A stretch of DNA of 11,425 nucleotides. Origin: an uncultured Clostridia bacterium. GTDB taxonomy: Bacteria; Bacillota; Clostridia; Christensenellales; Borkfalkiaceae. Location: NCBI GenBank assembly GCA_947176445.1, contig CAMWQK010000011.1, positions 1-11,425 on the forward strand, read 5' to 3'. Shown in pieces: positions 1 through 11,206 of this stretch. Each line of letters begins with the position of its first letter. Position 1 is the first letter of the stretch. The position numbers and the translations under genes are program-made. The notes under the pieces were generated by a model. That model saw nothing but the letters and a program-made list of their open reading frames with translations, had not been told where the DNA came from and made no database searches.

Positions 1-1188
1 GCCCTCCGTCAGGGTCGCGTTCTCCGCCTCGTAGCGCACCTTCTCGGTGACGTCGCCCGAGGGAAGTTTCAGCTCTTCCGTCCATGCCGACATCTTCACC
101 TTGGGGGTGTTGCCGTCCCATTCGAGCTTCTGAAGGCGCACCGTTCTGCTCCAACCCGCTCCCGAATATTTCGCCGAGTGATATACGATCCAGTCCTCCG
201 TGCCGTCGGGAGATTTCACCACCGAGTTGTGACCGGGGGAAACCACGTCCGCACGAAGAAGGTCGGTCTCCATGAGCGGCTTTTCACCCTTCTCCCAGCT
301 GCTCTGTTCGAGCGGGTTATCGCCCGTCATTTTCAGATACCCGATGCAATAGCAGTCGGACGCTGCGAAACTTGCCGAGAACAGCAGTACGGGCGTTCCG
401 TCGGGCGCATAGATGAGACAGGGTCCTTCGTTCTGGCTCGAGCTGTTGCGCTCCCAGTCGGCTTTGGGTTCGGAGATGAGGCAGCGCTCGCCGCCCGAAC
501 TCTCCTTGACCTTCGTGGGATCGCCCGTTTCAAGCTCGGTGATGTACAGGTTCTGTTGCCAGAACGCCGTATGGAGTTCGTTGGGCCAGCCCGCCCAGAT
601 GACGTACTGTTTGCCCTTGTAGTTCATAAACGTCGCGTCGATCGAACGTCTGTCGGGCGAGAGCTCCAGCTTGATCGCCTTTCCGTAATTGCCGAACGGA
701 TCGTCCGTCTCGCTCTTGATGATATACGTTCTGCGCGCACTGTCGATCACGTCCGTCTTGTCCTGGATCGCGTCGAGATACTCCTTGTCGGTGGTGGCTG
801 CCGTGAACAGCAGATACCAGTGTCCCTCGAAGAAGAAGATCTCGGGCGCCCAAACGGACTGAATGTTCGAATCTTCCAAAAATCCCGCAATGTGCGTCGT
901 TTGGGGATCGTCGAGATCGACGTACAGCGTCGTCAGACTCTTGGAACGCGTCACCGTGAACGCATAATTCAATTCGCCGTTTCTCTCTACCCCTTTGACT
1001 AAAACGTGGTAGTAGTAGTCGCCGTGCTTATAGAACCACGGGTCCTGCCCCGAAAGATGAATGGGATTGAAAAAAGTATCGTTCATATCTTCTCCGTTGT
1101 TCCCGCCGCACCCGCCGGTAAGGAGCGTCGCTCCGAACGTGACGATGGCGAGAATCGTGCAAAGGATTGCTTTGAATTTGCCCTTCAT
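1..1188 (-). CDS. GH43 lipoprotein glycosidase with C-terminal CBM, partial (3' end beyond window)
   Basis: Secreted glycoside hydrolase family 43 enzyme; the family contains arabinofuranosidases, beta-xylosidases and arabinanases that act on plant hemicellulose and pectin side chains. The window holds 396 residues read without a stop to its left edge. Residues 1-27 form a lipoprotein signal (MKGK start, hydrophobic stretch, lipobox LLTGGC with Cys27). The five-bladed GH43 domain runs from about 37 to 365. Its three expected acidic residues are visible: Asp49 in QDPW (base), Asp184 in SIDATF (pKa modulator) and Glu254 in NEGP (acid). WAPE at 113-116 and SPGHNS with His320 are also family hallmarks. 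A CBM6/35-like domain begins near 384 (YEAEN) and is cut by the edge; by comparison with the paralogue upstream about 120 residues are missing. The ATG lies one base after the stop of that paralogue, with GGAG inside the end of the upstream gene, so translation is probably coupled. Exact substrate cannot be read from sequence. Confidence 0.92.
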   Translation of the reverse strand, partial: MKGKFKAILCTILAIVTFGATLLTGGCGGNNGEDMNDTFFNPIHLSGQDPWFYKHGDYYYHVLVKGVERNGELNYAFTVTRSKSLTTLYVDLDDPQTTHIAGFLEDSNIQSVWAPEIFFFEGHWYLLFTAATTDKEYLDAIQDKTDVIDSARRTYIIKSETDDPFGNYGKAIKLELSPDRRSIDATFMNYKGKQYVIWAGWPNELHTAFWQQNLYITELETGDPTKVKESSGGERCLISEPKADWERNSSSQNEGPCLIYAPDGTPVLLFSASFAASDCYCIGYLKMTGDNPLEQSSWEKGEKPLMETDLLRADVVSPGHNSVVKSPDGTEDWIVYHSAKYSGAGWSRTVRLQKLEWDGNTPKVKMSAWTEELKLPSGDVTEKVRYEAENATLTEG

Positions 1189-1189
1189 C

Positions 1190-2734
1190 TTACTTCTCCA
1201 AGGCGTCTACCACAATGCAGTCGATCAGGATGTTCTGATCGCATTTGATCGTAATTTCGTTGGGGCCGGAAGGTCTCAGATACAGATCGCAGAAGAACGC
1301 GTTGTTGCAGAACGTATCGTCGTAAGGGGTTCTGGGCGTATACAGCGTGTAAGCCGTGCCGTTTACGCTCACGCTGATCGTCGTTGCCGATACCGCCTGA
1401 TTCGAATAACGAACGACGAGGCGATACTGTCCGTTCTTTTGCACGTTGACCTTGAAGGTGAGACTGTCGTTATCGGCAATACGGACTGCCTTGCCGCCCG
1501 AAGCCGCCGCCTGTTCCTCGCCGTCCGCGTCGATATAGACGCTGTCGATGACCGTACAGCCCTCGCCGAGCTCCGCATCCTCCGCCTCGTACTTAATGCG
1601 GTTTACCTTCTCGCCCGAAGGCATCGGGCTCTCTTCGTTATACGCGTAGATGTGTTCCACAACGGGGATATCGCCGTTCCAGGTCAGCTTTTGCAGACGC
1701 AGCACTCTGTCCCAACCCGCGCCCGAATATTTTGCCGAGTGATAGCAGATCCAGTCCTCCGTGCCGTCGGGAGACTTGACGACGGAGTTGTGTCCCGGAG
1801 AGATAATTTCCTCATCTGTCTCCATGAGCGGCTTTTCACCCTTCGTCCAGCTCGCGGGATTGAGCGGGTTCTTGTCCGCCCCGTCAAGCACGATGTAGCC
1901 GATGCAGTATGCGTCCGAGCCGGAGTACGCACCCGAATAGAGAAGCACGGGCGTGCCGTTCGGGGAGTAGGTCACAACGGGCCCCTCGTTCTGCTTTGCG
2001 CCGATCTTTTCCCAGTCGTACTCGGGCGTGGAGATCGCCACGCGGGTAGACGTCGGATCGACGACCTTCGTGGGATTGTTGTATTCGAGCTCCGCAATGC
2101 ACAAATCTTGCTGGTAGTCGGGCGTATGGCTCGCATACGGCCACGCCGCCCAGATGATATACTGTTTATTGTTGTACTCCATGAACGTCGCGTCGATCGA
2201 GCGGATATTGTTCTCGGGCAGGTTGACAAGGTAAGGCTGCGTCTCCCATTCGCCCATCGCATCGTCCGTCACGCTCTTTAAGCAGTAGGTGCGTCTGCCC
2301 GCATCCTGCAAGCCGGCGTTTGCGCCGTAGTCATGCGTCGCCGTGAAGTAGATGTACCAGTGTCCGTCGACGAAGAAGATTTCGGGTGCCCAGATCTCTA
2401 CGAGGTTCATCGCCTTCTGGCGAACGACCACCTTGGTGCGCGTCTCGTCGCCCGAGTTCGACGTGATATTCGTCATCCACTTGGAGCGGGTGACGGTGAT
2501 CTGCGTGCCCTCCGAATAGGTCACGTAGTAGTAACCGTCCTTCGTATACATCCACGGATCGCCGAGCCCCGACTCCACGCGGAGCGGGTTATAGAAGGTA
2601 TCGTTCATTACCGTGCCTTCGCCGTCGTAGCCGCCGGGCGTGTTCTCGTCGCCGCAGCCCGCAAAGCCCGCCGCGCACGACATACCGATCACCGTGCAAA
2701 ATGCAATCGCCGCGATCTTTTTCAAGTGTTTCAT
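1190..2734 (-). CDS. GH43 lipoprotein glycosidase with C-terminal CBM6/35-like domain
   Basis: A complete 514-residue exported glycosidase, expected to be tethered to the outer face of the membrane. The signal peptide ends in FAGC with Cys27 as lipid anchor. The GH43 domain covers about residues 45-365, with Asp59 (GDPW), Asp181 (SIDATF) and Glu250 (NEGP) as the predicted base, modulator and acid; WAPE at 115-118 and His315 in SPGHNS support the family. Residues 380-514 form a beta-rich domain opening with YEAEDAELGEG, typical of CBM6/CBM35 carbohydrate-binding modules. Motif style resembles exo-alpha-L-arabinofuranosidases or beta-xylosidases, but the subfamily is uncertain. The start is fixed by an AAGGAGG site five bases upstream. 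It lies 31 bases after the glycyl radical enzyme with no terminator between, so it is read as part of the same operon. It is clearly paralogous to the next gene, with shared blocks such as SPGHNSVVKSPDGTEDWI. Confidence 0.95.
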   Translation of the reverse strand: MKHLKKIAAIAFCTVIGMSCAAGFAGCGDENTPGGYDGEGTVMNDTFYNPLRVESGLGDPWMYTKDGYYYVTYSEGTQITVTRSKWMTNITSNSGDETRTKVVVRQKAMNLVEIWAPEIFFVDGHWYIYFTATHDYGANAGLQDAGRRTYCLKSVTDDAMGEWETQPYLVNLPENNIRSIDATFMEYNNKQYIIWAAWPYASHTPDYQQDLCIAELEYNNPTKVVDPTSTRVAISTPEYDWEKIGAKQNEGPVVTYSPNGTPVLLYSGAYSGSDAYCIGYIVLDGADKNPLNPASWTKGEKPLMETDEEIISPGHNSVVKSPDGTEDWICYHSAKYSGAGWDRVLRLQKLTWNGDIPVVEHIYAYNEESPMPSGEKVNRIKYEAEDAELGEGCTVIDSVYIDADGEEQAAASGGKAVRIADNDSLTFKVNVQKNGQYRLVVRYSNQAVSATTISVSVNGTAYTLYTPRTPYDDTFCNNAFFCDLYLRPSGPNEITIKCDQNILIDCIVVDALEK

Positions 2735-2739
2735 AGTTT

Positions 2740-2746
2740 CCTCCTT
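2740..2746 (-). promoter_or_regulatory. Strong ribosome binding site of the first GH43 gene
   Basis: AAGGAGG on the minus strand, five bases before the ATG at 2734. It is the best match to the anti-Shine-Dalgarno sequence among the operon genes and fixes the start. It suggests the secreted GH43 is translated independently of the upstream glycyl radical enzyme, unlike the coupled genes elsewhere in the operon. Confidence 0.8.
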
Positions 2747-2765
2747 ATTCTCTTTTTTATTTCGT

Positions 2766-4814
2766 TTAGCTTAAAAATTCCAACCGTTTGATGATATGGT
2801 TCTGATAGACGACGTCAAGCTCGTTGAAGTATCCGCTCCAACCCCACACGCGAACGATGAGGTTCTTGTGATCTTCGGGGTGCTTCTGCGCATCGAGCAG
2901 CGTATCGCGGTTGATGGCGTTGAGCTGCATCTGATGCCCGCCGTTCTCCACGAACAGCTTCACGAGCTGTGCGACCTTCTGCGTGCCCTCGTCGTTGCGG
3001 AAGAGCGTATCATGGAATTCGAGGGTGAGCGGTCCGCCGTTGCAGATACGCCCGAGGTTCGGCTTCGTGAAGGAGTGAATGACCGAGAGCACGCCGTCGA
3101 ACTTCACGTTCAGCGAGGGCGAGTAATTCGCACTGAACGGCTCGCCTGCATACCGTCCGTCGGGCGTTGCACCGAGGTGCTCGGAGAGCCAGATGTAGTA
3201 CATCGCGCTGCCCGTACCCGCGCGGAAGATGCCCCCGCGTTCGTTCTTTTCGCCCTTCAACCCGTCTGCAAAGCAATCGGTGAGCTCCACCGCAATGCTG
3301 TCTACGTAGTCGTCGTTGTTGCCCATCTTGGGAGCCGCAAGGCAGTCCGCATGCAGCTTCTCGTACCCCTTGAAGTTTGCTTTAAGCGCCGCTTTGAGCT
3401 CCTCTGCCGTGTACTTCTTCTCGTCGTACACGAGCTTTTTGATCGCCGCGAGCGAGTCTGCCGCCGTGGAGAGCCCCGCTCCGTGGAATCCGTAGTTGTT
3501 GTACTTCGAACCGTCCGCAATGTCCTTCGCCTCTTTGATGCAGTTCGTCATCATGACCGACTGGAAGGGCGACGGCTCTACAAAGATATTCTTCGTGCTC
3601 GCGATCAGCTGTTTACAGGTCGCGGTGAGATTTTTCTTTACCTCCGCCATGAGCGCGGGGAAGGTATCGAACGCTTCGAGCTTCTCCGCCGCCGTGAGCA
3701 TCACGTTGGGATAGCTCAGCGCGTCGATATTCGGAATGTCGTATGCAACGCCGGGAATGATGAACTCCCAGCACGCGGCGACCACGTAGTTTCTTGCGTC
3801 CTCTTCCTCATACCCCATCTCCATGAGCGCGGGAATGACCACGTCGTCGTTGGAGTACTGCGGGAAGCCGAGCCCCTTTTTGGTGAGCAACGTTCCGAGA
3901 TAGTAAGTATCGTACGAGGTATTCTTGCCCACGCGGATGTTGATCTTCGGATCGATGAGGTTGAGTTGCAACGACGCTTCGAGGCACACCTTGCTCAGCT
4001 CGTTGAATACCTCTTTTCCGTCCGTGCCCATACCGCCGAGCACCATGCTCTGTCCGTTATCGCCCTGCTGTACGCCGGGGTAGAGATCGGCGTCGAAGTT
4101 GAGATCGATGAAGAACTCGCTCGTAAGTTCGAGCGCCTCTTCCCGCGTGAGTTTCCCGCTTGCGATATCCGCCTGGAAGTAAGGATACATATACACGTCG
4201 AATCTGCCGATCGTATTGTGCTTGTTCGCGTTCAGCCAAAGGCTGAAATTGAGAAGCCGCATCATGACGAGCGCTTCGTAGTAGCTCTTGGGTGAATGCG
4301 CGGGCACGTGTTCAAGCGCGCATGCGAGTTCTTTGATCCCGAGCTTTTCCGCCTCTTTCTTATATTTTTCCGCCAGCGCATAGACCGCGTCGATCGTGAG
4401 GTTCATCGCGTAGAGTTCGTTGTACTCTTTGCTGCCGGTTTTATACTTTTTAATCTCTTTTTCGATTTCCTTCAGCTTTCCTTCAAGTCCGCCTTGGAGC
4501 GCGGAGGCGTAGTCGCTCGAAATATTGCCGACCTGCGCGCCGTCGAAGATGAAGTACTTTGCCCGCACTTCCTCTGCCTCCTTCTCGGTTAAAAGGGGCG
4601 GGAGTTTTTGCAGGGTGCGCATCATGCCGATCTTATCCTCTGCAAAGAGCATCGCCTTTTCCGCCTCAACCGCTTCCATCAGACGGCGGGCGCTGCGAAT
4701 GGCAAGATCCTTTTCCTCATAGAACTTGCAGGGCATTGCGCTCTCTTTCTGACGCAGATTGCGATATTCCCGCTTCTGAAAACGATCGTAAATTTTTTGC
4801 AGTCTCTCTTCCAT
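2766..4814 (-). CDS. Glycyl radical enzyme of the pyruvate formate-lyase superfamily, substrate unknown
   Basis: A 682-residue cytoplasmic glycyl radical enzyme. After activation by a radical-SAM partner such enzymes carry a backbone glycyl radical that makes a cysteine thiyl radical; members cleave pyruvate, dehydrate diols or hydroxyproline, or break C-N and C-S bonds. The glycyl loop is RVWGWSGYF with Gly658 as radical site. The thiyl cysteine is Cys348 in AACWE, followed by Glu350. Other superfamily marks are SSDYASALQGGLEG (99-112), FPQYSNDDV (317-325), GAGLSTAADSLAAIKK (445-460), ATPDGR (549-554) and NRDTLLDAQ (635-643). The Cys-x-Glu pair argues for a dehydratase/lyase-type enzyme rather than true pyruvate formate-lyase, which has Cys-Cys. 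It is compact: PFL has about 760 residues and choline lyase about 850. AGGAGA lies seven bases before the ATG. The gene follows its activase by 15 bases. Neighbouring glycosidases suggest a carbohydrate-derived substrate; this is inference. Confidence 0.9.
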   Translation of the reverse strand: MEERLQKIYDRFQKREYRNLRQKESAMPCKFYEEKDLAIRSARRLMEAVEAEKAMLFAEDKIGMMRTLQKLPPLLTEKEAEEVRAKYFIFDGAQVGNISSDYASALQGGLEGKLKEIEKEIKKYKTGSKEYNELYAMNLTIDAVYALAEKYKKEAEKLGIKELACALEHVPAHSPKSYYEALVMMRLLNFSLWLNANKHNTIGRFDVYMYPYFQADIASGKLTREEALELTSEFFIDLNFDADLYPGVQQGDNGQSMVLGGMGTDGKEVFNELSKVCLEASLQLNLIDPKINIRVGKNTSYDTYYLGTLLTKKGLGFPQYSNDDVVIPALMEMGYEEEDARNYVVAACWEFIIPGVAYDIPNIDALSYPNVMLTAAEKLEAFDTFPALMAEVKKNLTATCKQLIASTKNIFVEPSPFQSVMMTNCIKEAKDIADGSKYNNYGFHGAGLSTAADSLAAIKKLVYDEKKYTAEELKAALKANFKGYEKLHADCLAAPKMGNNDDYVDSIAVELTDCFADGLKGEKNERGGIFRAGTGSAMYYIWLSEHLGATPDGRYAGEPFSANYSPSLNVKFDGVLSVIHSFTKPNLGRICNGGPLTLEFHDTLFRNDEGTQKVAQLVKLFVENGGHQMQLNAINRDTLLDAQKHPEDHKNLIVRVWGWSGYFNELDVVYQNHIIKRLEFLS

Positions 4815-4829
4815 AAAACCATCTCCTAA

Positions 4830-5681
4830 CTACATGATTTTTGCTTGAATTCCGTAACGTCGGAACAGTTCGACGTTCGCATTGACTTCCGATTTTTCAT
4901 CGAATTTCGGGTGATATTCCATGCCGACCATGGTATATTTGCTTCCCGACATCTTGTTGTACGGCAGCAGCTCGATCCCGAGCGCGCCCGAATTTTTCAC
5001 TTTTTCTGCAATCGCCGTCAAATTCTCTTCGGTATCCGTCACGCCGGGGATAAGAGGCGTTCTCGCCATGAACTTCACGCCGCTCTTTTTCAGCAGTTCG
5101 AAGTTTCTGAGAATGGGCTCGTTGCTTCTTCCCGTATACTCGATCGCCTTCTCTCTGTCCATCACTTTGAGATCGAACATCACGTAATCGACCACGGAGA
5201 TGACCTTCATAAAGTCCGCTTCGGACGCGTATCCGCTCGTCTGGATCGCCGTATGCACGCCGATCTCTTTGAGCATGGGAATGAGCTCGTGTAAGAAGTC
5301 GGCATACAACAGGCACTCTCCGCCCGAGAATGTTACGCCGCCGCCCGCCTGTTTCAGATAATCCGAATTCTTTTTCAGCTTTTCGAACAGTTCCTTCGTC
5401 GTATAGGCAACGCCGCTGTATCGGATGAGCCCGCGCGGACAGACGGAAATGCAGTTTCCGCAGGCGACGCAACCGTCCTTATGCGCGCAGATTTTCTCAC
5501 ATGCGCCGCAGTGCAGACATCCGTTGGGGGCTTTGACGACCTGAATTTTTTGGCTCAGTCCCTCGGGATTGTGGCACCAGTTGCACCGCATCGGGCAACC
5601 CTTGAAAAACACCGTGGTGCGTATCCCCGGTCCGTCATAGACGGAAAATTCTTCAATTGAAAAGACAATGGCTTGCTTCAT
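4830..5681 (-). CDS. Glycyl-radical-enzyme activating protein (radical SAM, two extra 4Fe-4S clusters)
   Basis: A 283-residue radical-SAM activase that reductively cleaves S-adenosylmethionine and abstracts a hydrogen from the radical glycine of its partner, here almost certainly the enzyme encoded 15 bases downstream. The signature YDGPGIRT (15-22) leads into the SAM-cluster motif CxxxCxxC at Cys29, Cys33 and Cys36. A ferredoxin-like insert follows with two CxxCxxCxxxC sets (Cys55/58/61/65 and Cys71/74/77/81), as in activases of choline lyase, glycerol dehydratase and hydroxyphenylacetate decarboxylase; the short PFL activase lacks this insert. The SAM-binding glycine motif is GGGVTFSGGE (113-122), and RTPLIPGVTD (207-216) and LLPYN (238-242) are further family marks. 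Its ATG overlaps the stop of the GH2 gene in ATGA, and GAGGG in the end of that gene supplies the ribosome site. The stop codon is TAG. Confidence 0.95.
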   Translation of the reverse strand: MKQAIVFSIEEFSVYDGPGIRTTVFFKGCPMRCNWCHNPEGLSQKIQVVKAPNGCLHCGACEKICAHKDGCVACGNCISVCPRGLIRYSGVAYTTKELFEKLKKNSDYLKQAGGGVTFSGGECLLYADFLHELIPMLKEIGVHTAIQTSGYASEADFMKVISVVDYVMFDLKVMDREKAIEYTGRSNEPILRNFELLKKSGVKFMARTPLIPGVTDTEENLTAIAEKVKNSGALGIELLPYNKMSGSKYTMVGMEYHPKFDEKSEVNANVELFRRYGIQAKIM

Positions 5682-7450
5682 TTTCCCTCATACGTCTCTC
5701 TGTCATTGAGCGGGGCGATCTTCTTCACGTCGAACTTCGGCTCGTGATCCTTGCTGAGTAGCCCGTTCACTTCCTGTTTTACGTCGGTGAGCTGGGTATA
5801 GCAGTATCCCGCAAAGTCGCAGGCAAATACGCCGCGGTTGAGATCCTTGAAGCGTTGCAGGAAGTTCTCCGACTTTTCGAGGCAATACCCCCACGCCTCG
5901 CCGTCCGACTCGGTGTGCAATTCCTTGACGCCCGCATGCAGCACGGCGATCCCGCCGTATTCTGTGAGAATGACGGGCTTATCGAGACTGATCTTCTCGC
6001 CGAAGCCCATGAGGCGGCGCGCCATCGGGAAGACCTCCGTGAGATTTTCCGTTCTGTACTTCTCCGCCCAGGTCTCCGTATTCGGCGAATAGTCGTGAAT
6101 ACTGATGATGTCCGTCTCCTCGACGCCTTCCCACCCGTCGTTGGTACTCACGAGGCGGGTTGCATCGATGGATTTGGTGAGATAGTACATTGCGCGGGCG
6201 TAATCCTTCTGCTTTCTGTCCATCAGCAGCTTGCGCACGCCCCAGCTCTCGTTCAGCGGCACCCATACGATGACCGACGGATGATTGTAAAGATCGAGGA
6301 TCAGCTCCTCGTACTGCGCCGTGTGCAGCCTGATCTCGCGGTTGTTATAGTCGTATGCGCTGGGCATCTCTCCCCAAACGAGGAACCCGAGCGTATCGGC
6401 ATAGTAATAATAGTAAGGATCTTCCACCTTCTGGTGCTTTCTGCCGCCGTTGAAGCCCATCGCCTTGGAGATGAGGATATCCTCTTTGAGGCTCTCCGCA
6501 GAGGGCGGCGTCAGATCCGTCTCGTCCCAGTAGCCCTGATCGAGCACCAGCTTCTGATAGAGCGGAATGTTGTTGAGCAAAATCTTATTCTTCTCGGTGC
6601 TGATCTTGCGGAATGCAAAGTATGTATCCACACTGTCAACCACTTCGCCCCCGCACATGAGTTCCAGCCGTACTTCGTAGAGGTTGGGATTTTCGGGCGA
6701 CCAGAAATGAATTTCGTCGATACTGTCCTCGGGCTTTAAGAAGAGTCCGATCTTCGCGTCTCGCCCGCAGAGCGAATTCGTCTGCGTGAGCACCGTAGCG
6801 CCTCTATAAGAGATCGTCGTTTTCAGCGCGTCGAACTTCCCTGCGCTCTCTGTTTCGAGCAGTACGCTGTTCGTATCGATGTCGGGCGTGAAGAGCGCGC
6901 GCTCGATGTAGCCGCAACCCGTCTTTTCCAGCCATACGCTCTGCCAGATCCCCGAGCTTGCCACATACCAGCAACGGCTCGGCTCCTTCTTCCAGTACTG
7001 CTTGCCGCGCGGCTGCGCACAGTCATAGCGGTCGGTCACGCGGATGGCGATCGTGTTCTCCTCCGCGAGATACTCTGTAACGTCAAAACTGAAATGGGTG
7101 TAGCCGCCGACGTGACTGCCCACGTATTTTCCGTTCAGCCAGATCTCCGCTTCGTAGTCCACGCCATTGAAGTGCAGAAGCGTCTTGCCGCCCTTCATCT
7201 CCTCCGAGAGACGGAACGTGCGGCGATACCACATGACCTCGTGCAGATCGGAAATCCCGATCCCGCTCGCCTTGCACTGATAGGCGAAGGGAACGTTGAT
7301 GTTCATGCCGAGCGGTTTGCCACTCTCGTACAGTTTTTTTGAAATACCGTTTTCGGCATCGTCAAAACAAAACTCCCACGTCCCGTTCAGGGTTTGCCAA
7401 TTTTCGCGCTTGAATTGCGGAGACGGATATTCTGACCTTGAAAAACTCAT
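5678..7450 (-). CDS. Cytoplasmic glycoside hydrolase family 2 enzyme
   Basis: A 590-residue retaining glycosidase of GH2, the family of beta-galactosidases, beta-glucuronidases, beta-mannosidases and some arabinopyranosidases. There is no signal peptide, so it should act inside the cell on imported oligosaccharides. Domains in order: sugar-binding jelly roll (about 15-178, with LNGTWEF and WLNGKYVGSHVGGYT), immunoglobulin-like domain (about 180-285), and TIM barrel from about 290 to the end. The predicted acid/base is Glu401 in PLNESWG and the nucleophile Glu497 in ILTEYGG. GFNGGRKHQKVEDP (332-345) is the usual barrel-entry motif. It lacks the extra C-terminal domains of LacZ, which has about 1,020 residues. 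It is the first gene of the operon. GAGG lies 11 bases before the chosen ATG, and in-frame stops lie upstream with no other ATG. Substrate is not assignable; the GH43 partners suggest plant hemicellulose or arabinogalactan. Confidence 0.93.
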   Translation of the reverse strand: MSFSRSEYPSPQFKRENWQTLNGTWEFCFDDAENGISKKLYESGKPLGMNINVPFAYQCKASGIGISDLHEVMWYRRTFRLSEEMKGGKTLLHFNGVDYEAEIWLNGKYVGSHVGGYTHFSFDVTEYLAEENTIAIRVTDRYDCAQPRGKQYWKKEPSRCWYVASSGIWQSVWLEKTGCGYIERALFTPDIDTNSVLLETESAGKFDALKTTISYRGATVLTQTNSLCGRDAKIGLFLKPEDSIDEIHFWSPENPNLYEVRLELMCGGEVVDSVDTYFAFRKISTEKNKILLNNIPLYQKLVLDQGYWDETDLTPPSAESLKEDILISKAMGFNGGRKHQKVEDPYYYYYADTLGFLVWGEMPSAYDYNNREIRLHTAQYEELILDLYNHPSVIVWVPLNESWGVRKLLMDRKQKDYARAMYYLTKSIDATRLVSTNDGWEGVEETDIISIHDYSPNTETWAEKYRTENLTEVFPMARRLMGFGEKISLDKPVILTEYGGIAVLHAGVKELHTESDGEAWGYCLEKSENFLQRFKDLNRGVFACDFAGYCYTQLTDVKQEVNGLLSKDHEPKFDVKKIAPLNDRETYEGK

Positions 7451-7492
7451 ATTCTGTTCATCCTCGTACTTAGTTTTAGTCTTTTCGAGTTA

Positions 7493-7521
7493 ATCTTACC
7501 TAATTAAAAAAAACTTGTAAA
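7493..7521 (-). promoter_or_regulatory. Candidate sigma-A promoter of the GH2-GRE-GH43 operon
   Basis: On the minus strand a TTTACA -35 box (7521-7516) and a TAAGAT -10 box (7498-7493) are separated by 17 bases. They match the consensus at 5 of 6 and 4 of 6 positions. The predicted start is near 7486, giving a leader of about 36 bases. An oligo-T tract of eight lies in the spacer. The imperfect -10 box suggests dependence on an activator or low basal expression. Confidence 0.45.
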
Positions 7522-7530
7522 TCCATAATC

Positions 7531-7550
7531 GGCAAATAAATTTATTTGCC
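7531..7550. promoter_or_regulatory. Perfect 20-bp palindrome, probable operator
   Basis: The halves GGCAAATAAA and TTTATTTGCC are exact reverse complements with no gap. The site lies in the divergent gap between the operon and the regulator gene. It would be centred about 55 bases upstream of the predicted operon start and about 77 upstream of the predicted regulator start, so it should not be transcribed from either promoter. That favours a dimer-binding DNA site over an RNA hairpin. The adjacent ArsR-like protein is the obvious candidate to bind it. Binding is inferred from position. Confidence 0.7.
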
Positions 7551-7582
7551 TACCCCTTCTTCGTAAAATCCTGAAATACCCC

Positions 7583-7611
7583 TTGACAAACAAAAAGCCA
7601 AATATTATAAT
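7583..7611 (+). promoter_or_regulatory. Consensus sigma-A promoter of the ArsR-like regulator gene
   Basis: TTGACA (7583-7588) and TATAAT (7606-7611) are both perfect boxes with a 17-base spacer. Transcription should start near 7618, leaving a 49-base leader before the ATG at 7667. The spacer contains GCCAAATA (7597-7604), one mismatch from the first eight bases of the palindrome half-site, so autoregulation is possible. Confidence 0.85.
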
Positions 7612-7666
7612 GAAATAAAATGCACCGCGCACGTTTCCCGTATCGCGGCAATCATAAGAGAGTGCT

Positions 7667-8584
7667 ATGCTGAAAGTCACCTATTACAATTTCAAAAACG
7701 AAAACGAGCTTCTCGAAATTGCGCGGGCAATCTCCTCGCCGAACAGGCTGGATATCTTAAAAGCGCTGAACACGAAGAGTCTGAGCATCAAGCAGCTGAG
7801 CGAGCTTCTCAATCAGCCCGTCTCCTCCACTTCGATGAACGTGGATATCTTGGAGCGGTGCGGTCTCATCCGCACGGAGCGGCAGATCTCGCAGTTCGGA
7901 AAGGTTCGGCTCTGTTCGCGCGCCTGCGACAGTATTTCCATCGACCTGCAAAACGACACTTCCGTCAAGGGAAACGAAATCAAGATCGCCCTGCCCATCG
8001 GCTCCTACTTTGACTGCGATATCAAGCCCGACTGCGGAATTGCAACGAGCACGGGAAACCTCGGCATCGACAGCGAGAACAACTGCTTCTTTATGCCCGA
8101 GCGACATATGGCGCAGCTCATCTGGTTCAGCAAGGGATACCTCGAATACCGCATCGCGAAGAACATGATCCCGCCGAACGCGAAGCGCATGGAGATCTCC
8201 TTCGAGACCTGCTCGGAAGCCCCCTTCTACCGCAACGACTATAAGTCGGATATCACGCTCTGGGTAAACGACGTGGAGATCGGCACGTACACGAGCCCAG
8301 GAGACTACGGCGACAGACGGGGTAGGCTCAATCCCCCTTGGTGGCCCGATTCGATGACGCAATACGGAATGCTCGTCACCTGGCGCATTACCGAGAACGG
8401 ATGCAAGTTGGGCGCGGAAGAGATCAACGTGAAGAAGTTCAAAGATTTCGATATCTTCTCCCGCGAATATATTTCGATCAAGATCGGCGTCAAGGAGGAC
8501 GCAAAGTATCAGGGCGGACTCAACCTGTTCGGAAAGGAATTCGGCGATCACGCGCAGGATATCGTCGTCAAATTCAGCTGGTGA
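7667..8584 (+). CDS. ArsR-like winged-helix regulator with a large C-terminal domain
   Basis: A 305-residue predicted cytoplasmic transcription factor. Residues 13-95 form a winged-helix domain of the ArsR type: AISSPNRLDILKAL for the first helices, SIKQLSELLNQPVSSTSMNV for the turn and recognition helix, and ERCGLIRTERQ leading into the wing. The classical metal-binding cysteine motif of ArsR/SmtB is absent. Residues 105-305 form a long extension rich in alternating beta-type segments and aromatic residues (NPPWWPDSMTQYG at 222-234, QGGLNLFGKEFGDH at 282-295), unlike the roughly 100-residue metal sensors of the family. I read it as a ligand-binding domain, plausibly for a sugar; this is inference. 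The gene is divergent from the glycosidase/GRE operon, shares a palindrome-bearing control region with it, has its own consensus promoter, and ends in a strong terminator. The ribosome site is weak (AGAGAG). Confidence 0.85.
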   Translation: MLKVTYYNFKNENELLEIARAISSPNRLDILKALNTKSLSIKQLSELLNQPVSSTSMNVDILERCGLIRTERQISQFGKVRLCSRACDSISIDLQNDTSVKGNEIKIALPIGSYFDCDIKPDCGIATSTGNLGIDSENNCFFMPERHMAQLIWFSKGYLEYRIAKNMIPPNAKRMEISFETCSEAPFYRNDYKSDITLWVNDVEIGTYTSPGDYGDRRGRLNPPWWPDSMTQYGMLVTWRITENGCKLGAEEINVKKFKDFDIFSREYISIKIGVKEDAKYQGGLNLFGKEFGDHAQDIVVKFSW

Positions 8585-8586
8585 AT

Positions 8587-8625
8587 AAAAAGCCGCAGAT
8601 TTCAAATGGAAATCTGCGGCTTTTT
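8587..8625. terminator. Bidirectional intrinsic terminator
   Basis: A 17-bp perfect stem (8587-8603 with 8609-8625, core GCCGCAGATTTC) closes a 5-base loop. The A-tract on the left and T-tract on the right make it work in both directions. It starts three bases after the regulator stop and lies 17 bases beyond the stop of the convergent lipoprotein gene, so it probably serves both. Confidence 0.93.
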
Positions 8626-8641
8626 CTACCTATTCATATTA

Positions 8642-9472
8642 TTACAGCGGCATGGTATACCATTCGGGCAGCGTCAGATCGCGCACCAGATAGTAATCGT
8701 CTATGTCGTACTCCGTAAAATCGCTGCTCTCCACCGTATACCCGTGCGTGTATCCCGCGGAAGCGTTCTCCCGCACCGTACGGAAGGAATACGTGCCTTC
8801 GAGGCAATCGACTTTATAGTACAGCGAATATTCGGACTGTTCGCCAAGCGTCAGCTCCAACCCCTTGGAATAGCGCCCAATGCCGAACGTGGATTCCATG
8901 CTAAGAAGCGTATTTACGTCGTCATAGTTATGTTTGCAGCTGTCCGCATACGCCGTTAAAAGCCGCCCGTCCTTGCCCGTAACGAATATCACCGTATCCT
9001 CCGTCGGCGACATGCTGTCGGTATAAGTGAGCCTGAAATCCCCCTCGCTCCCGCTCAATTGCATGTTCCGCGTCTCGGTGAGATAGTCCGCAATGACGAC
9101 GCTGTACGGTCCCGCGCCGCAATACTCGTTGAGAACGTCGTCCTGATAGCTGCCGCTCACCGTAAAATTAATGAGGTGCGTGACCCTGATCCCCTTTAAG
9201 TAAGAGACGGACGAATCCGCCGCTTCAAGGAGTTCGGACTTTTGCGGAATACCGCTTAAATATTCGGCGGGAAGGGTCGCCGTCGATTCCGCGCCCGTCG
9301 CCCTTGCATAGGAGCGCCCGATGGCGACCGTCAACGCGCTCATGGAATAGGAGTACTCCACCTTTCCCTCGGGCGCGGGCAGAGGCTCGTCTCCGCCGCC
9401 GCAACCGACGCCCGCGGCGATCATCGCCGCCACGGTCAGACATACAAATATATTTCGGCGCAATTTCTTCAT
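8642..9472 (-). CDS. Putative lipoprotein of unknown function
   Basis: A 276-residue exported protein that I do not recognise. The N-terminus (MKKLRRN, then a hydrophobic run) ends in AAGVGC with Cys24 followed by GGGDE, a slightly atypical lipobox because Gly rather than Leu sits at -3. The rest has no membrane segment and looks beta-rich, with many Tyr, Ser, Thr and Asp residues and alternating strands to the C-terminus (LPEWYTMPL). The open frame extends upstream to an ATG at 9625, but that is rejected: a clear promoter at 9509-9537 places the transcript start near 9502, and only the ATG at 9472 gives a lipoprotein signal. AAGGA lies 11 to 12 bases before this ATG. It stands alone, convergent with the regulator gene, and nothing links it to the glycosidase operon. 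Confidence 0.82.
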   Translation of the reverse strand: MKKLRRNIFVCLTVAAMIAAGVGCGGGDEPLPAPEGKVEYSYSMSALTVAIGRSYARATGAESTATLPAEYLSGIPQKSELLEAADSSVSYLKGIRVTHLINFTVSGSYQDDVLNEYCGAGPYSVVIADYLTETRNMQLSGSEGDFRLTYTDSMSPTEDTVIFVTGKDGRLLTAYADSCKHNYDDVNTLLSMESTFGIGRYSKGLELTLGEQSEYSLYYKVDCLEGTYSFRTVRENASAGYTHGYTVESSDFTEYDIDDYYLVRDLTLPEWYTMPL

Positions 9473-9508
9473 GTTTCGCCCCGTCCTTAAATCAATTTTT
9501 CGCCCTCT

Positions 9509-9537
9509 ATTATATCCCCTTTTTCCGATAAAGTCAA
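9509..9537 (-). promoter_or_regulatory. Near-consensus sigma-A promoter of the lipoprotein gene
   Basis: On the minus strand TTGACT (9537-9532) and TATAAT (9514-9509) are separated by 17 bases. The predicted start near 9502 leaves a leader of about 30 bases containing AAGGA before the ATG at 9472. The promoter lies inside the upstream extension of the open frame and therefore decides the start codon. Confidence 0.85.
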
Positions 9538-9644
9538 CCGCAAAATTTACACAAAAAATATGGAACGAACGCTCTGTTTTGGCAGTTTTTTGGCGTGGCG
9601 AATGGTAAACTTTGCCTACATTCATATTTTAAGGAGTATTCACC

Positions 9645-10028
9645 ATGGCAAAACTCAATTTAGATGCGTACAATTTTATCGATCTTTCGCAGACGGACTT
9701 TTCGCTCTTGACCGACGAGGAACTCGCGGTATACATAAAGGATACGATCGCCGTTCTCGATGCGTACAAGAAGAAGGCGACGAAGGCGAAGATGATCTTC
9801 GGGCTTGCGGCGGGTCTGCTTGCGATGCGCGGGGGCGAACTCACCAAGGTTACGCTCTTTTCCAAGAAGTACAAGAAAGGCAACGCCACCAAGCAGGAAT
9901 TGAAGCTCGTAAAAAGAGTCATCAAAACCTTCCGCATTTATCTCGTATTCAAAGTCGTCATCGCCCTCGTAGGCAATCAGCAGGCAGGCATGCAGTTGCT
10001 TGCTCCGCATGCTGCAAGGAAAAAATAA
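9645..10028 (+). CDS. Small protein of unknown function (127 aa)
   Basis: A 127-residue basic, mostly helical protein with no family I recognise. The N-terminal 50 residues are acidic and amphipathic (LSQTDFSLLTDEELAVYI). Two moderately hydrophobic stretches follow, about 49-63 (AKMIFGLAAGLLAMR) and about 98-111 (YLVFKVVIALVG), linked by a lysine-rich segment. They are too short and mixed for confident membrane spans. AAGGAG nine to ten bases upstream fixes the start. No clear promoter was found in the 172-base gap shared with the divergent lipoprotein gene. The next gene begins two bases after the stop, so the two are co-transcribed. The frame overlaps a long open frame starting at 9560 in another phase, which is judged a shadow. 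Confidence 0.8.
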   Translation: MAKLNLDAYNFIDLSQTDFSLLTDEELAVYIKDTIAVLDAYKKKATKAKMIFGLAAGLLAMRGGELTKVTLFSKKYKKGNATKQELKLVKRVIKTFRIYLVFKVVIALVGNQQAGMQLLAPHAARKK

Positions 10029-10030
10029 CG

Positions 10031-11206
10031 ATGGGAAAATTTCGTTTTCCGAAGGAACGACCGGAAATCACGCAAAAGCTCGAAGAGGCGAAAAAACTCA
10101 TCGCACAATCCCCCGACGATATTCAGACGGTATTACAGGTCTATAACATGATTTCGGAGTGCGCCGAGGCGGGCAGCCCGCGCGGCTGCTTTTTGAAGGC
10201 ATGTTTTCTGTATGCGGACGAAGCGCAGTCGGGAGATCATAAGGACGAGATCCTCCCCCTTCTTGACGCCGCCATAAAGGAAAAATATCCGCTCGCCTAC
10301 GGTATGAAGGTCGACTATCTTCTGGCATTTGAAGATTCCGATCTCCTGTATAACGCCATCCGCAAGTGCAAAATCGAAACCCCGCAGGCGCTCTATTACG
10401 AGGGCGGGTTTTGGGCGAGGCTCTGCGACCCGCCTAAAGGGCTGAAAAAGAATTTATCAAAGGCGATCGCATGCTTCGAACGTTCGGCACAGCTGTACCT
10501 TGAATACGACCGCGCATACCGCGCGGGGTGCACGGAGCTCTCCGATATCATCGTCTGCTTTCGCAACCCCGACTTCTTTACGTCGCAGGCGGCATATGCG
10601 TATCAGATGCTCATGTACGTGTACGCGGACATGGACGCAAAGGAGAATGTGCCAAGATACATTGCGGCATACGACAACGCGCAAAGGTACGGCAATCTCA
10701 TCGTACAGTACAAGACGGCTTCAACGCGAGCGACCGACTGCATGAATAACGTACTCGGCATGCACAGCTTAAAGACGGTAAACGCCGTACTCAAAACGGC
10801 GAAAGCTGCGTATGCACAGCTCGACGAAGCGCAGCAGGAGAGACTGCAAGAGAACTACGACGAGCTGTGGGCGCTGTACGACGAATTTTACGATTACGAA
10901 ATGCAGAGACTGGAAGAGATCGGAAACATGGAGGTCTATACCTCTCCCGACTACGCGAGGCAGGATTCGCTCCTCTCCGATTTCGCAAACGCCGTGCAGC
11001 AATGGTCGGAGACCAGACAAGCGGCGACAGAATACACGGTCAAGGTGGGCAACAAGACGTACCGTCTCAACGAACACGGAGAGATGGTGGACGAATACGG
11101 GCAGGGCAACGGCTTGCACGTAGACACGACCAGCAGGAAAGTGTACGATTCTAAAAATGACGCCGTGGGCTTCTTCGATAGCTTCGGTGAATTTCATAAA
11201 TACTGA
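10031..11206 (+). CDS. Helical-repeat (Sel1/TPR-like) protein with a beta-rich tail, unknown function
   Basis: A 391-residue protein with no signal peptide or membrane span, so probably cytoplasmic. From about residue 30 to 230 it consists of paired helices with small-residue patterns such as AGSPRGCFLKACFLYADE, ALYYEGGFWARL and LSKAIACFERSAQLY, like Sel1 or tetratricopeptide repeats that mediate protein contacts. Residues 250-300 are charged and may form a coiled coil. The last 60 residues differ: two short beta-type units (VKVGNKTYRLNEHGEMVDEYG and a related KVYDSKNDAVGFFDSFGEFHKY segment) suggest a small binding module. AGGA ten bases upstream and the start two bases after the 127-residue gene indicate an operon. 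The same frame stays open back to 9560, but that stretch is arginine/histidine-rich and covers the upstream gene, so the later ATG is chosen. Confidence 0.85.
   Translation: MGKFRFPKERPEITQKLEEAKKLIAQSPDDIQTVLQVYNMISECAEAGSPRGCFLKACFLYADEAQSGDHKDEILPLLDAAIKEKYPLAYGMKVDYLLAFEDSDLLYNAIRKCKIETPQALYYEGGFWARLCDPPKGLKKNLSKAIACFERSAQLYLEYDRAYRAGCTELSDIIVCFRNPDFFTSQAAYAYQMLMYVYADMDAKENVPRYIAAYDNAQRYGNLIVQYKTASTRATDCMNNVLGMHSLKTVNAVLKTAKAAYAQLDEAQQERLQENYDELWALYDEFYDYEMQRLEEIGNMEVYTSPDYARQDSLLSDFANAVQQWSETRQAATEYTVKVGNKTYRLNEHGEMVDEYGQGNGLHVDTTSRKVYDSKNDAVGFFDSFGEFHKY

Follow-up and report, generated by a model that had tools for sequence, protein, structure and literature searches.

What does a glycyl radical enzyme (GRE) do in the middle of an operon for glycan breakdown? 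This question is raised by contig CAMWQK010000011.1 of assembly GCA_947176445.1, from an uncultured Clostridia bacterium of the Borkfalkiaceae, on which the genes for a GRE and its activating enzyme (activase) lie among genes for glycoside hydrolases (GHs). The window analysed is the entire contig (11,425 nucleotides; G000:C11), and its genome, G000, comprises 1.07 Mb and is 64% complete. Some of the most difficult reactions of anaerobic gut metabolism are catalysed by GREs, and to our knowledge substrates are known for only part of the superfamily. Our answer, to which we give an even chance, is that the enzyme works as a dehydratase-like C-O lyase, its substrate being a carbohydrate that a furanose-glycan system releases or imports.

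By its sequence the protein is a member of the PFL-like glycyl radical enzyme superfamily, for which glycyl radical formation is predicted: it matches PF02901 (PFL-like, 348 bits) and PF01228 (Gly_radical, 69.9 bits), both above cut-off. The AlphaFold2 model has a mean pLDDT of 89.5 and the full GRE fold with barrel and active-site cysteine; pLDDT is below 50 in the glycyl loop (656-665), and the pocket was taken from alignments alone. C348, E350 and G658 together with the modelled fold are consistent with a dehydratase-type GRE, in agreement with an earlier note on this DNA. The protein matches 12 NCBIfam models, in every case below cut-off, among them those for HypD (NF043068, 296 bits against a cut-off of 1100), CutC (TIGR04394, 289.5 against 1050), (2S)-3-sulfopropanediol dehydratase (NF048009 and NF048011, 285.8 and 257.8 against 1000) and PFL (85.8 against 994).

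For the placement within the superfamily, 113 GRE rows, without frames shorter than 600 amino acids (aa), were aligned together with six characterised GREs, i.e. diol dehydratase (DD), glycerol dehydratase (GDH), CutC, HypD, PflD and YbiW, four of which entered the trees as aligned parts. A single clade apart from the six is formed by 109 of the 113 rows, including the window (FastTree, support 100), and a smaller mixture-model tree of 31 rows concurs (SH-aLRT 99, stem 1.87). The four rows outside this clade are L079_3, L136_14, L144_9 and L156_8, where both trees warn of long branches. The view that the enzyme does not cluster tightly with a characterised GRE is borne out, for the six compared, by these trees and, for the models matched, by the scores. 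Aryl, sulfonate and alkylsuccinate GRE types were compared with the window GRE by pairwise sequence score and fold only, and the structure search bears on the families in its listing. HypD and CutC identities were rejected on the model cut-offs and the tree, membership of PflD/YbiW on the separate clade, and PFL identity on the one active-site cysteine and the PFL model score.

The clade is marked by the motifs RVWGWSGYF and CWE and is called the WGW clade here. At the Cx-E site the cysteine is found in 113, W349 in 109 and the glutamate in 111 of the 113 rows, while the six characterised GREs have CVE or CIE. W657 and W659 are each present in 109 rows, at positions where the six have A and Y, and the glycyl loop carrying both is invariant in an alignment of 64 rows. 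N97 (108 rows) replaces H in the characterised GREs (four of the four covered), N362 (111 rows) takes a position at which only DD, GDH and PflD among the six have D, and E599 (111 rows) stands where the characterised GREs have K, or R in HypD. Other conserved positions are D241 (109), Q249 (107), D252 (110), H444 (109), R531 (110) and Y540 (108). Several clade-specific polar residues would fit a larger polar ligand. Compared with glycerol dehydratase (1r8w) and 1,2-propanediol dehydratase (5i2a), to which the window GRE is 29-30% identical over about 670 residues, the clade has W for the A and Y of RVAGYS and Asn at the equivalents of H164 and D447 (GDH numbering), and the operon context of the window GRE differs.

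The clade is widespread but patchy. In the window's genus, four of 101 genomes carry a member (G000, G013, G097 and G073, the last with a copy 46% identical); a fifth match, G045, is 31% identical and was left out of the count. At E 1e-150, members were found in 15 of 398 family genomes and 19 of 391 class-sample genomes, G000 included. A scan of named genomes was based on the best 80 loci of 580 confirmed relatives, which come from Bacillota, Spirochaetota, Bacteroidota, Lentisphaerota and Verrucomicrobia and include the named isolates Hungatella hathewayi, Robinsoniella peoriensis, Eisenbergiella tayi and Oligosphaera ethanolica. The source names of the relatives (best 120 listed) are pyruvate formate-lyase, formate C-acetyltransferase, benzylsuccinate synthase and hypothetical protein. 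No paper on the WGW clade or on a furanosidase-tied GRE was among the matches listed in a literature search of partial texts, which does not show absence from print; the WGW-clade GREs are apparently a clade of a known superfamily without an assigned function in the sources searched.

The genes for GH2, activase, GRE and GH43 had been described as physically interlocked, and both the open reading frame (ORF) coordinates and Pfam agree (Table 1). GH2 and activase overlap by 4 bases (5678-5681, TCAT on the plus strand, i.e. ATGA), and gaps of 15 bases (4815-4829) and 31 bases (2735-2765) separate activase from GRE and GRE from the first GH43, respectively. The gene order given for 2766..7450 stands, but the extent does not: a second GH43 and a divergent regulator lie beyond it, the two GH43 genes are spaced by 1 base, and the operon has at least one gene more than described. 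The activase is above cut-off for TIGR02494 (267.6 bits against 174.35) and reaches no equivalog cut-off among the NCBIfam matches listed.

Gene neighbourhoods of relatives were compared at 110 loci labelled by tblastn. The label families were picked from the same loci, and the family-wide counts are therefore descriptive and not a test, with the distance profile as the sole internal control. The GH2 label takes in GH2 proteins that are not necessarily furanosidases, near-identical loci (e.g. L104/L114 and L093/L103) were left uncollapsed, and a large number of contigs run out before 6 kb. An activase lies within 0.5 kb of the GRE in 101 of the 110 loci. In the window's own subclade the complete unit, a regulator divergent from GH2, activase, GRE and GH43, is found in seven of 12 loci (window, L044, L046, L047, L049, L052 and L054), which span Clostridia and Bacilli at GRE identities of 55-74%, each with an ArsR-type regulator opposite. 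Since the same order recurs in this way, the operon arrangement is not chance. Genes are packed as closely in L044, L052 and L054 as in the window; L046 and L049 have wider gaps. A furanosidase-type GH is present within 6 kb in nine of the 12 loci; upstream genes are GH127 in L050 and GH2, GH127 and GH43 in L053. In its own subclade the GRE is locked to furanosidases. GH2 homologues at least 60% identical were found, the window aside, in three of the 398 family genomes (G013, G097 and G108), and these copies sit in GRE operons; at E 1e-90, relatives of the GH2 occur in 84 of the 398.

The nature of the glycan was approached through the hydrolases. Against the Protein Data Bank (PDB) the GH2 matches 7xyr, 7sf2, 9j6n and 9j6m at 310, 261, 232 and 230 bits, followed by the next structure at 104 bits; 7XYR and 9J6M are placed in GH2 group III, the furanosidase group, in the excerpted text of PMC12243196. 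By sequence the window GH2 groups with alpha-L-arabinofuranosidases and beta-D-galactofuranosidases and not with galactosidases or glucuronidases, the activity being predicted; like the group III furanosidases (GH2_18 and GH2_19) it keeps the NE motif (LNESWG in the translation), and no signal peptide is evident by eye. Both GH43 proteins match arabinofuranosidase/xylosidase structures, and the first has a weak CBM35-like tail below cut-off. Judged from the GH2 and GH43 structure matches, L-arabinofuranose or D-galactofuranose is most likely present in the target glycan.

In the proposed mechanism, the operon would import and dismantle such a furanose-containing glycan. The two surface GH43 lipoproteins would clip it, with another lipoprotein and an ABC transporter of the CUT1 type next in line in relatives, and the cytosolic GH2 would remove L-arabinofuranose or D-galactofuranose. 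The activase would install the glycyl radical at G658, from where the radical would move to C348, and C348 would abstract the hydrogen of a C-H group adjacent to a carbohydrate hydroxyl. E350 would take the hydroxyl proton while the neighbouring C-O bond breaks, giving a deoxy-carbonyl product. Candidate substrates would be a free sugar, an alditol or a sugar derivative of the glycan system. We infer the carbohydrate nature of the substrate from the neighbours only, and the radical transfer and C-O cleavage from the chemistry of the family.

Sugar genes are also found near many distant members, in line with the sugar or alditol substrate suggested earlier. Within 6 kb, 73 of the 110 loci have at least one gene for a GH, for sugar transport or for sugar metabolism. 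Outside the subclade, at distances of 0-1.5, 1.5-3, 3-6 and 6-10 kb, all labelled GHs cover 3.6%, 8.9%, 6.8% and 3.6% of bases, sugar transport 5.6%, 8.0%, 9.7% and 5.3%, and sugar metabolism 5.9%, 8.4%, 4.7% and 3.6%. Loci L056 and L070 hold a set of Rbs-type ABC genes, LacI, a FucI-like isomerase, an FGGY kinase and a class II aldolase, and L106 has the same set without the LacI label.

Several observations weigh against the proposed mechanism. Three of the 12 subclade loci (L045, L048 and L051) have no GH labels, and outside the subclade furanosidase-type GHs cover only 1.0%, 2.8%, 3.2% and 1.4% of bases over the same distances, so the furanosidase link is weak there; the recurrence with GH2 and GH43 genes expected in the earlier note therefore holds within the subclade but is not general. 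At 36 of the 110 loci only activase or regulator labels are seen within 6 kb, so that no downstream pathway is visible. L-arabinose is already served by AraA (PF11762) in the operon carriers G013 and G097, which are among the 74 of 101 genus genomes with a match (none in G000, at 64% completeness). A replacement of the L-arabinose pathway by the GRE was rejected as an essential explanation on this ground, and free L-arabinose is doubtful as an essential substrate because G013 and G097 have both operon and isomerase; the same weakens, as an essential substrate, the released pentose named in the earlier note. Use of arabinose by the GRE, if any, would therefore be a second route, and an alditol, anhydrosugar, oligosaccharide or galactofuranose-derived substrate is as likely as arabinose.

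The active site adds a further point on this side. H164 and D447 together with Cx-E are what we take to be the hallmark of the glycerol/1,2-propanediol dehydratase family, the two residues presumably assisting departure of the hydroxyl in GDH. N97 and N362 align with them in the window GRE, in which this hallmark is absent, and the leaving group would be released in another way than in GDH or via other residues. With this replacement, the leaving-group chemistry of the WGW-clade GREs is probably different from that of GDH.

The same residues bear on the reading of the GRE as an electron-sink polyol dehydratase, which we consider unlikely. Here a small polyol (glycerol, propanediol or an alditol) from sugar fermentation would be the substrate, and the place in the operon would only tie redox disposal to sugar use. 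The H164/D447 pair, common to DD, GDH and PflD, is Asn in the clade, and the conserved polar residues D241, Q249, Q250, D252, H444, R531, Y540 and E599 are absent from DD and GDH, even though the best matches by sequence are glycerol and diol dehydratases, which share first place with CutC by structure. The 36 loci with only activase or regulator labels would suit a polyol; the 12 subclade loci, however, have neither alcohol dehydrogenase nor aldo-keto reductase labels within 6 kb.

Cleavage of a ring or glycosidic C-O bond on an unphosphorylated sugar, in the manner of YbiW and PflD, could explain the loss of the H164/D447 pair by a non-water leaving group, and is in our estimate quite unlikely. 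YbiW and PflD are GREs that open 1,5-anhydrohexitol 6-phosphates (excerpted text of PMC12441222; PDB titles 8id7 and 8id0). Among the six, only PflD has the clade's PQ ahead of xND and a similarly short segment following Cx-E, of 69 residues, compared with 66-68 in five clade members and 81-86 in the other five characterised GREs. However, identity to PflD and YbiW is low (25-27%), they are separate in the trees, both keep the H164 equivalent, and the window operon has no phosphotransferase system (PTS), kinase or fructose 6-phosphate aldolase-like gene. For the dehydratase-like lyase preferred here, PflD and YbiW (the 1,5-anhydromannitol-6-phosphate and 1,5-anhydroglucitol-6-phosphate lyases) are likewise a precedent of C-O cleavage in a sugar derivative by a GRE, with the difference that their substrates are phosphorylated and PTS-delivered, according to the same excerpts.

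A hydroxyproline route, the second possibility of the earlier note, fared badly and is very unlikely. The furanosidases would remove the sugars from arabinosylated cell-wall proteins, and the hydroxyproline set free would be dehydrated by the GRE. GH127 genes lie near the GRE in L050, L053, L055, L082, L107, L117, L119, L121 and L151, and the excerpted text of PMC10850190 names extensin as a carrier of beta-L-arabinofuranosides and describes a GH127 as a beta-L-arabinofuranosidase. Nevertheless, the GRE reaches only 296 of the 1100 bits for trans-4-hydroxyproline dehydratase, HypD, and does not group with it in the trees; the labelled transporters are sugar types, and a Pfam scan of the window and the sampled neighbour representatives gave no proline-pathway gene. 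A PFL-type C-C lyase is extremely unlikely, for although some relatives are named pyruvate formate-lyase by their sources, a single active-site Cys followed by W-E and the low PFL model score speak against it, as does another, much stronger PFL-like match (698 bits) at G000:C27.

Microcompartment shell genes were noted as not visible in this DNA, which holds for G000 and for the GRE stretches inspected, without a PF00936 match, but not for the genomes at large: 16 of 33 GRE-bearing genomes tested carry PF00936 matches elsewhere, including G328, a genome of the window's subclade with two matches. No PF00936 was found in G000 (64% complete), G013, G097, G073, G108, G127 or G115. The window GRE thus also differs from choline trimethylamine-lyase CutC in that no shell gene was found in G000, G013, G097 and G108, besides being below the model cut-off.

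Table 1. Features of the window with positions, strand and basis of assignment.
Feature	Position	Strand	Basis
Second GH43, lipoprotein-type N-terminus (by eye), truncated by contig edge	1..1188	-	ORF and Pfam GH43
First GH43, 514 aa, lipoprotein-type N-terminus (by eye)	1190..2734	-	ORF and Pfam GH43
Glycyl radical enzyme (GRE), 682 aa	2766..4814	-	ORF, Pfam, NCBIfam, alignment, AlphaFold2 model
Predicted glycyl radical loop VWGWSGYF including G658	2826..2849	-	Alignment
C348-W349-E350, putative active-site cysteine and Cx-E glutamate	3765..3773	-	Alignment with six characterised GREs
GRE-activating radical SAM enzyme (activase), 283 aa	4830..5681	-	ORF and Pfam Radical_SAM; ferredoxin-like cysteine motifs
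CPMRCNWC, activase radical SAM CxxxCxxC motif (C29, C33, C36)	5574..5597	-	Translation
GH2 glycoside hydrolase, 590 aa	5678..7450	-	ORF and Pfam GH2 domain
Sigma-70-like promoter, 12/12 matches, upstream of regulator	7583..7611	+	Consensus match only
Divergent regulator, ArsR-type helix-turn-helix, faces operon	7667..8584	+	Pfam

Terminator-like sites in 1-9700 are near expectation (13 observed, 9.9 with a standard deviation of 2.8 in shuffles), and promoter-like sites are about two standard deviations above it (11 observed, 5.5 with a standard deviation of 2.6 expected), one being perfect. An Rfam scan of the window gave no match at the gathering threshold. The C-terminal part of the regulator, about 220 aa, has no Pfam match; a regulator stands opposite the operon in 7 loci. 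Beyond it, 8642-11206 holds two plus-strand genes (9645-10028, 127 aa; 10031-11206, 391 aa) and a putative lipoprotein on the minus strand (9475-8642), all without Pfam match.

A lipoprotein, c27, and a CUT1-type transporter are found downstream in L044, L046, L047, L049 and L052; the contigs of the window and L054 end too soon to show them. The c27 copies (L044:15146-17683, L046:9546-12065 and L049:14386-17016, and also in L047 and L052) lie downstream of the GH43 genes, have about 840-880 aa and are 31-72% identical to the L044 copy. They gave no PDB match at E 0.01 and in Pfam only sub-threshold Ig/PKD-like and other signals; c27 is perhaps a glycan-binding surface protein.

FucI-like isomerases of about 465-492 aa adjoin Rbs-type transporter genes and the GRE in L073, L075, L105 and L106, with two such isomerases each in L073, L075 and L106. 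In Diplocloster (L093:2921-13942 and L103:3001-14050) the GRE has as neighbours an FGGY kinase, a DeoC-type aldolase (230 bits, cut-off 117), a Zn-dependent alcohol dehydrogenase, an aldo-keto reductase and an SGL-type protein, a set that would make a deoxy-sugar route possible. A second, very different GRE is present at L079:3501-5882, L136:12973-15006, L144:11896-13875 and L156:11892-13898, with a further activase beside it in L079, L136 and L156. None of these four turns up in the lists of the eight best blastp matches of the others, and the glycyl loop reads RMYGFSEYF in L156 and RVGGYSEYF in L144.

A wider reading is put forward tentatively, as we hold it to be more doubtful than probable: the WGW clade may be a phylum-spanning GRE family for radical C-O cleavage directly on unphosphorylated sugars or glycosides, by which a radical step would be built into plant- or microbial-glycan catabolism. 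In the boldest form of this reading, the GRE would open a furanoside ring or split a glycosidic C-O bond with no hydrolysis involved, as a radical counterpart of a glycosidase.

The near-invariant fingerprint across several phyla, including named isolates, makes the clade a defined target, and the furanosidase operon narrows the search for its substrate to compounds derived from arabinofuranose- or galactofuranose-containing glycans. Should the substrate prove to be a sugar, a radical deoxygenation step would be added to glycan breakdown, and with it a fermentation route missed by annotation, which often says pyruvate formate-lyase.

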